A DNA stretch of 64,000 nucleotides from Persicimonas caeni. Its GTDB lineage: Bacteria > Myxococcota_A > Bradymonadia > Bradymonadales > Bradymonadaceae. The notes under the pieces were generated by a model that ran no database searches, was not told the origin of the DNA, and saw only the letters and a list, made by a program, of their open reading frames with translations. The stretch lies in contig NZ_CP041186.1 of the NCBI RefSeq assembly GCF_006517175.1, forward strand, positions 5,483,074-5,547,073. Direction: 5' to 3'. This document shows positions 26,817 to 26,948 of this stretch, piece after piece. A program made the position numbers and the translations under genes. The number at the start of each line of letters is the position of its first letter. The first letter of the stretch is position 1.

Positions 26817-26948
26817 AGTCACCCCGCGCAAGTACACCGGGCGGTGTGCGTTGCGTCGCACGGGAGTCGAACCCGTTGCCGCCGATCCGTGAGGAGTCGA
26901 CGACTTTTACCAGTGTGTAAGCCCGGCCGGTCAGGTCGCGGGGTGACT
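26817..26948 (-). ncRNA. Y-like RNA 2 (reduced tRNA mimic)
   Basis: A 12-bp perfect terminal stem joins 26817-26828 to 26937-26948, followed inward by a 6-bp stem (26837-26842 with 26921-26926). Inside is a canonical T arm on the minus strand (26860-26876, stem ACGGG/CCCGT, loop TTCGACT), then a very short acceptor-like stem (GCG/CGC, 26848-26850 with 26857-26859) closed by a 6-nt loop. A small variable-arm-like hairpin (AGTCG-T-CGACT) lies 5' of the T arm. This is the permuted order seen in Y RNA 1, but with a truncated acceptor and no clear D arm. The boundaries are the stem ends; true ends are unknown. Confidence 0.7.

Follow-up and report, generated by a model that had tools for sequence, protein, structure and literature searches.

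A D-arm-less tRNA-like RNA beside a Ro60-like protein gene of Persicimonas caeni carries a docking module shared by RNAs with interchangeable payloads

We analysed a stretch of 64,000 nucleotides of Persicimonas caeni DNA (contig NZ_CP041186.1, positions 5,483,074 to 5,547,073; hereafter the window), in which the minus strand encodes, in this order, a candidate ubiquitin-like protein (Ubl) of 66 amino acids, two structured RNAs (RNA1 and RNA2), a von Willebrand factor A (vWA) protein that is Ro60-like, a conserved partner called p2 and a ThiF/E1-like enzyme. Our subject is RNA2 (26817..26948, minus strand), which lies just downstream of RNA1 (26972..27154, minus strand), an RNA with a 26-bp end stem, the same docking motifs and a permuted tRNA payload. 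An earlier note, made from the letters of this DNA, had described RNA2 as a Y-like RNA built on the plan of RNA1, and our analysis, which places it next to a Ro60-like vWA protein, bears this out. RNA2 consists of a docking module and a D-arm-less tRNA-like payload, and comparison with relatives shows a common docking module joined to interchangeable payloads that copy tRNAs, tRNA parts or, in relatives, functional centres of the 23S rRNA.

Read from 26948 to 26817, RNA2 is closed by a 12-bp end stem (AGTCACCCCGCG/CGCGGGGTGACT) whose 5' strand (26937..26948) pairs with 26817..26828. Within it lie a 6-bp inner stem, CCGGGC (26926-26921) pairing with GCCCGG (26842-26837), and the two family motifs, TACACAC (26913..26919; consensus TACANAC) and ACTTG (26829..26833). 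The payload has a D-loop-like stub (TGGTAAAA) in place of a D arm, a hairpin of 8 bp with an 11-nucleotide loop at the anticodon-arm position (26878..26904), a T arm (ACGGG-TTCGACT-CCCGT, 26876-26860) and a closed acceptor-like hairpin, GCG/CGC, of 3 bp (26859-26848). The stems, the T-arm loop and the acceptor of about 3 bp named in the earlier note are all present. The minimum free energy (MFE) of RNA2 was -68.1 kcal/mol, versus a mean of -49.35 (standard deviation 3.82) for 200 dinucleotide shuffles (z -4.91), none of which folded as well. The unconstrained MFE structure has an acceptor of 5 bp (GTGCG/CGCAC) but gives up two T-stem pairs for it; T stem and acceptor may thus be of 5+3 or of 3+5 bp. 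When the window was scanned for the docking module on both strands, only two places were found, RNA1 (score 19) and RNA2 (score 17), whereas 30 shuffled windows, also scanned on both strands, gave 7 matches with a top score of 13. No near copy of RNA2 was found elsewhere in its own genome. ARAGORN found no tRNA in the window, and RNA2 has neither the open acceptor nor the full cloverleaf of a functional tRNA; since its acceptor is closed, RNA2 should be neither charged nor used in translation.

The gaps between the operon genes of relatives hold repeated RNAs with the docking arms seen in the window. The docking module comprises an end stem, an internal loop with a CC-rich 5' side and ACUUG on its 3' side, an inner stem and UACANAC. 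We scanned 93 sources for TACANAC ... ACTYG with inner and lower stems, a search in which the motif letters are conserved by construction, and obtained 351 matches on the given strand, 18 on the other and 10 in shuffles; 3 of the 18 came from L029, a locus whose genes sit on that other strand. With all sources oriented and one added, there were 356 records and 328 non-overlapping RNAs, in 85 of 94 sources. Because the scan itself requires stems, the inner-stem pairing it yields is inflated by selection. Selection by the sequence motif alone gave 285 places on the given strand and none on the other, and in these the inner stem, read in a fixed register, was paired at 0.905, compared with 0.781 when the arms were re-dealt (standard deviation 0.005, maximum 0.799 in 500 trials) and 0.40-0.60 when the register was slid. 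Covariation across relatives, which the earlier note had proposed as a check, was thus observed, compensatory changes keeping the inner stem. This sequence-only rule does not pick RNA1 and RNA2 of the window, the internal loop of which differs slightly from the cyanobacterial consensus. The docking scan found no match in 9 of the 93 non-window sources: L072, L075 and L110 include less than 350 bases upstream of the gene, L114 shows such RNAs under looser settings, and in L031, L048, L115, L117 and L118 no RNA with the docking motif was seen in the upstream part read.

The earlier note had also called RNA2 reduced and its D arm degenerate, and had supposed that one of the two RNAs might be the older copy. 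These descriptions are not supported: 12 cyanobacterial RNAs from loci of this system are likewise built without a D arm, from TACANAC, a stub (TGG..A), a hairpin, a spacer of one base and a T arm. Eleven of them have a closed acceptor hairpin of 3-8 bp, which in two is, as in RNA2, 3 bp. RNA2 is a member of this D-arm-less subtype and not a degenerate copy of RNA1. The payloads of the two RNAs do differ, which would fit the further suggestion that they may bind different clients.

The 328 payloads were divided into 201 of tRNA type, 42 with 23S segments, 77 unclassified and 8 mixed, the last carrying an AAGGTAG motif and some of them being tRNA-type on reading. The tRNA-type payloads comprise 106 tRNAs that ARAGORN found in direct order, 41 permuted ones found with the payload written twice and 54 with a T loop only; on doubled sequence, ARAGORN matched 72 of 332 trimmed payloads versus 3-5 in random segments of the same loci. 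The TACATAC motif and GTATG form the acceptor of 97 distinct whole-tRNA payloads, and this end of the payload is therefore locked. The anticodon is the most variable part (1.67 bits), with the T and D arms at 0.54 and 0.61 bits. Analysis of the anticodon arm was made on the 80 payloads with an arm of 17 nucleotides, the 17 of other length being excluded. All 80 had at least 4 of the 5 anticodon-stem pairs and 73 had U33; they carry 28 anticodons, without a repeat within the locus in 21 of 22 loci, and 38 of the loops were the same as real tRNA loops, compared with 20.3 expected (maximum 29 in 500 trials). Bare anticodon-like stem-loops were seen in 17 of 48 short payloads, 15 of them with U33, versus 4.7 and 1.3 in shuffles, and in many loci short payloads lie directly before the vWA gene.

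In 13 compact RNAs from phages and the window's phylum (L026, 5; L029, 2; L030, 1; L113, 3; L114, 1; L119, 1) the docking hairpin is inserted inside the tRNA, the same object being opened elsewhere. Most of the cyanobacterial ones among 85 inverted-topology matches were rejected as neighbouring units with similar arms pairing by chance, and compact inverted matches in L062 and L069 were dropped as repeat artefacts. One unassigned payload, with CACC..GGTG, GCGT..ACGC and GCCTG..CAGGC hairpins and no tRNA or rRNA match, recurs at L027 5817-5928, L049 7971, L073 9213-9306, L082 7064-7145, L095 5330-5417 and L104 288-372. A tmRNA-like match at L065 7535-7618 (46.6 bits; gathering score 47) is perhaps another kind of payload.

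Among the 23S-type payloads, 26 hold the GTPase-associated centre and 16 a permuted segment of helices 69-71 (H69-H71). Matches to 23S were obtained in 42 of 332 payloads, but in no segment of three random draws of 332 from the same loci, and were confined to two segments, 1022-1110 and 1883-1915 of the L121 gene. The 12-nucleotide sequence of the sarcin-ricin loop, AGTACGAGAGGA, is intact in 26 of 26 GTPase-centre payloads. With the Rfam large-subunit rRNA model, one such payload scored 55.1 bits (cut-off 50; 49.5 in a shorter search) and a Moorena payload 52.7. The break in the H69-H71 payloads lies in the H69 loop, and the two strands of the H69 stem stand at opposite ends; this permutation rests on reading both payload ends, and doubling the payload gave no longer match. 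In Microcoleus vaginatus, a 23S GTPase-centre fragment also lies ~13 kb outside L047 (G377:C1:2529711-2529766), and array members may therefore be scattered.

The vWA protein of the window (25270..26697, minus strand; 475 amino acids) is predicted to consist of HEAT-like helices and a vWA domain. The Pfam TROVE model gave no listed match for any of 33 relatives of this protein at E 0.01, and its own top Pfam match, the Ro60 vWA domain, was under the cut-off. In a structure search with its AlphaFold model (mean pLDDT 88), the first 13 PDB matches were all Ro60/TROVE (query TM 0.60-0.72), and its profile matched TROVE chains at E 2e-4. By the model, then, the protein has the Ro60 fold, a ring of helical repeats plus vWA, that Pfam TROVE misses. 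D300, S302 and S304 of its metal-ion-dependent adhesion site (DxSxS) are invariant among 35 aligned sequences. The ubiquitin-like candidate (27212..27412, minus strand) ends in a glycine, G66, that is invariant in 18 of 18 aligned sequences, and it gave no family or structure match. The ThiF/E1-like adenylyltransferase (23752..24399, minus strand) scored 98.6 bits with Pfam ThiF and matches PADLOC E1-E2 models of defence systems. For p2 (24401..25252, minus strand), a fold search returned nothing at E 0.001 or better, with weak OB-fold-like matches. No RtcBA gene was found among the operon proteins of the window. The flanking genes encode a protein kinase fused to an ODP metallo-beta-lactamase (21556-23763, plus strand) and a CheB/CheR/PAS hybrid histidine kinase (27746-32320, minus strand).

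Within the window's family the vWA protein was matched in 2 of 21 genomes, one being that of the window itself, and within its phylum in 22 of 377; apart from that of the window, only the matches in G172, G212 and G334 seem to be full-length and close. Several loci of this phylum (L008-L024; G250, G277, G182 and others) hold frames of ~600-900 amino acids that weakly match residues 110-450 of the vWA protein and, judged by these matches, may possibly be another Ro60-like family. Further carriers are one jumbo-phage record, two cyanobacterial plasmids and 7 viral contigs. The genome survey covered the best 80 of 281 genome relatives, nearly all of these 80 being cyanobacterial. Partner genes were found in the 80 loci as follows: the 66-amino-acid gene in 61, p2 in 41 and ThiF in 39, where missed genes include those at contig ends and beyond 10 kb; in the 41 genome loci with full flanks the counts were 37, 25 and 25, and in the 7 viral contigs 5, 7 and 7. 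Cyanobacteria, phages and genomes of the window's phylum share the operon order. A JAB peptidase gene is present in 8 of 8 viral loci, with the metal motif recognised by pattern in five, and the JAB of L113 scored 33.7 bits with Pfam Prok-JAB (cut-off 25).

Inside or beside the operon we also found KptA, an RNA 2'-phosphotransferase, in 10 of 94 sequences (e.g., L071 13120-13677) and a poly(A)-polymerase-type nucleotidyltransferase in 3 of 94 (L027 7439-8239, L049 and L091). Three protein families without a Pfam match are kept among the arrays in 35, 28 and 14 loci (L065 8626-9351; L036 9322-9783; L027 8307-9179); none of these three was found in the window by the queries used. At least 5 ordinary tRNAs lie beside the system in 18 of 93 loci, and large arrays of 8-32 ordinary tRNA genes were seen, e.g., at L027 1450-4973, at L091 153-3985 and in L036. 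The Dolichospermum plasmid L028 has a HEPN-domain gene (820-1188) that separates the vWA gene from p2 and lies on the other strand.

Y RNAs with a tRNA-like domain, phage Ro60 proteins and ubiquitin-like operons are already known. As with YrlA (RF02553) and Rsr, the bacterial Ro60, the gene of a Ro60-fold protein here adjoins RNAs that combine an end stem with a permuted tRNA-like module. RNA2 shares with YrlA a long end stem with an internal loop and a tRNA-like module but lacks the D arm, and a Kovacikia member, the best relative, matches the whole RF02553 model (1-114) at 32.7 bits. However, the matches remain below the Rfam gathering score of 69 bits (RNA1 27.4 bits; RNA2 no match), and the arrays here contain many RNAs, whose payloads include tRNAs that are whole, closed or split as well as anticodon stem-loops and segments of 23S. 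An Rfam run on 14 kb of the window gave weak YrlA and tmRNA echoes in RNA1 only; two YrlA matches in the same genome were rejected, both being on ordinary tRNA genes. The Ro60 fold also occurs on phage genomes (Thermus phage phiLo, PDB 9l5y; jumbo-phage TROVE proteins; PMC7824862), but identity in the aligned structure is 13-15%, and the accessible part of that paper does not describe Ubl, p2, ThiF and JAB partners or RNA arrays. The ThiF/E1-like protein, and JAB in viruses, resemble prokaryotic ubiquitin-like operons (E1, Ubl, JAB; CBASS), whereas no E2 was found and the Ro60-fold protein and RNAs replace the nucleotide cyclase. The ordinary tRNAs beside some loci recall phage and cyanobacterial tRNA arrays, but the RNAs themselves are closed, permuted or split by the docking module and are not plain spare tRNAs. 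We rejected a type III toxin-antitoxin system, since the following gene has a Ro60 fold and is not a toxin endoribonuclease and the payloads differ from one another, and the PRTRC system, with which ThiF scored 39 of 144.75 bits, Ubl gave no match and PRTRC_C exceeded the cut-off in 0 of 188 genomes. For the arrays, the rRNA payloads and the Ro60/Ubl operon we found no description in our searches of an open-access library. The sections available of PMC7824862, PMC5408214, PMC7790460, PMC7159879 and PMC1779556 do not describe such RNA arrays, and those of PMC1779556 mention neither TROVE nor vWA.

One reading that would cover all the payloads is that they represent sites where attackers or factors meet the tRNA and the A site. 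We tentatively favour, at somewhat less than an even chance, the reading that RNA2 is a payload-bearing RNA of a Ro60-like/Y RNA system that displays decoys or baits for attackers of translation RNAs and is coupled to a ubiquitin-like response. The Ro60-like protein would bind the docking module and hold the payload outward, and the payloads would be decoys or baits for anticodon nucleases, sarcin-ricin-loop RNases and like attackers, RNA2 presenting its T arm and the hairpin at the anticodon position. A payload might merely soak up the attacker, or it might be a sensor whose cleavage triggers the response; the Ubl, ThiF/E1 and p2 proteins, joined in viruses by JAB, would tag the captured attacker or the complex, or get rid of it, and repair genes linked to the system, KptA in some loci, would make good the damage. 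The choice of payloads (anticodon loops, the sarcin-ricin loop) fits the targets of known toxins, which cut the sarcin-ricin loop and tRNAs (PMC5408214, seen in part). A bolder version, in which this is a new class of RNA-based immunity with exchangeable mimics of translation RNAs (many anticodons, the combined sarcin-ricin and GTPase-centre site, the permuted H69-H71) on a Ro60-like ribonucleoprotein, RNases and other translation attackers that bind a mimic receive a ubiquitin-like tag, and bacteria, plasmids and phages each have their own mimic repertoire, seems to us rather doubtful.

Several observations weigh against the decoy reading. The loop of the RNA2 hairpin is not a 7-nucleotide anticodon loop, and the hairpin is longer than in the 12 cyanobacterial RNAs, so the target of mimicry is less clear for RNA2 than for RNA1. 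The window holds just two RNAs; KptA and the nucleotidyltransferase were not found in it by the queries used, and the viral JAB query gave no match in the window or in bacterial loci. Besides the E1-like and JAB proteins, no operon member matches PADLOC models. Among the payloads, 16S matches numbered 0, though 16S is a known target, and the helix-70 UUCCU site of MazF-mt3/mt6 is mostly absent from the H69-H71 payloads (TTCCT in 2 of 16). The GTPase-associated centre is better known for binding factors and thiostrepton, which sits poorly with a simple list of toxin targets. Furthermore, the nuclease that was tried in Salmonella did not cleave the tRNA-like domain of YrlA (PMC7790460, in its accessible part).

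Other explanations are less probable in differing degrees. That the RNA1/RNA2 stretch is coding, or that its stems arise by chance, is scarcely credible: an open frame of 627 amino acids does span both RNAs, running from 27153 into the vWA gene, but aligned relatives of the vWA protein begin at the residue that corresponds to 26697 or close to it, RNA arrays occupy the same gap in relatives, and no shuffled window reached the docking scores of RNA1 and RNA2. Its short acceptor and missing D arm would suit an RNA2 that is a decayed duplicate of RNA1 with no function of its own; given that the architecture recurs in cyanobacteria, that the docking arms are intact and that the fold is far more stable than those of shuffles, we consider this very improbable. 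A sulfur-carrier role, in which Ubl and ThiF serve tRNA or RNA modification and the RNAs are substrates or guides, also appears improbable, if slightly less so. Ubl-type sulfur carriers thiolate tRNAs in other systems, and sulfur-carrier adenylyltransferase models match the ThiF protein, with scores under their cut-offs; however, there is no thiolation enzyme among the four operon proteins, the JAB peptidase of the viral loci is as in conjugating systems, and 23S payloads are, to our knowledge, not thiolation substrates.

The most serious rival, still unlikely in our judgement, is that the payloads recruit housekeeping enzymes of tRNA and rRNA processing, modification or decay to the Ro60-like particle, the payload setting the client. 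In Deinococcus radiodurans a Y RNA tethers Rsr to PNPase (PMC7790460, seen in part), the payloads are both tRNA-like and rRNA-like, and KptA and the nucleotidyltransferase are linked in some loci. Taken alone, however, recruitment leaves unexplained the many anticodons, all different within nearly every locus, the bare anticodon stem-loops, the presence of the sarcin-ricin loop and the GTPase centre in one payload, and the ubiquitin-like genes.

The purpose of the tRNA-like domain in bacterial Y RNAs is unsettled; for that of YrlA a role as competitor has been suggested (PMC7790460, in the part seen). Since one docking module here carries many mimics of translation RNAs, the question becomes directly testable by swapping payloads. 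If the bait reading is true, the system would be an RNA counterpart of antigen display, in which the arrays could be read as a record of the translation attackers met by a lineage, and Ro60, ubiquitin-like tagging and tRNA repair would be joined in one system in cyanobacteria and phages.
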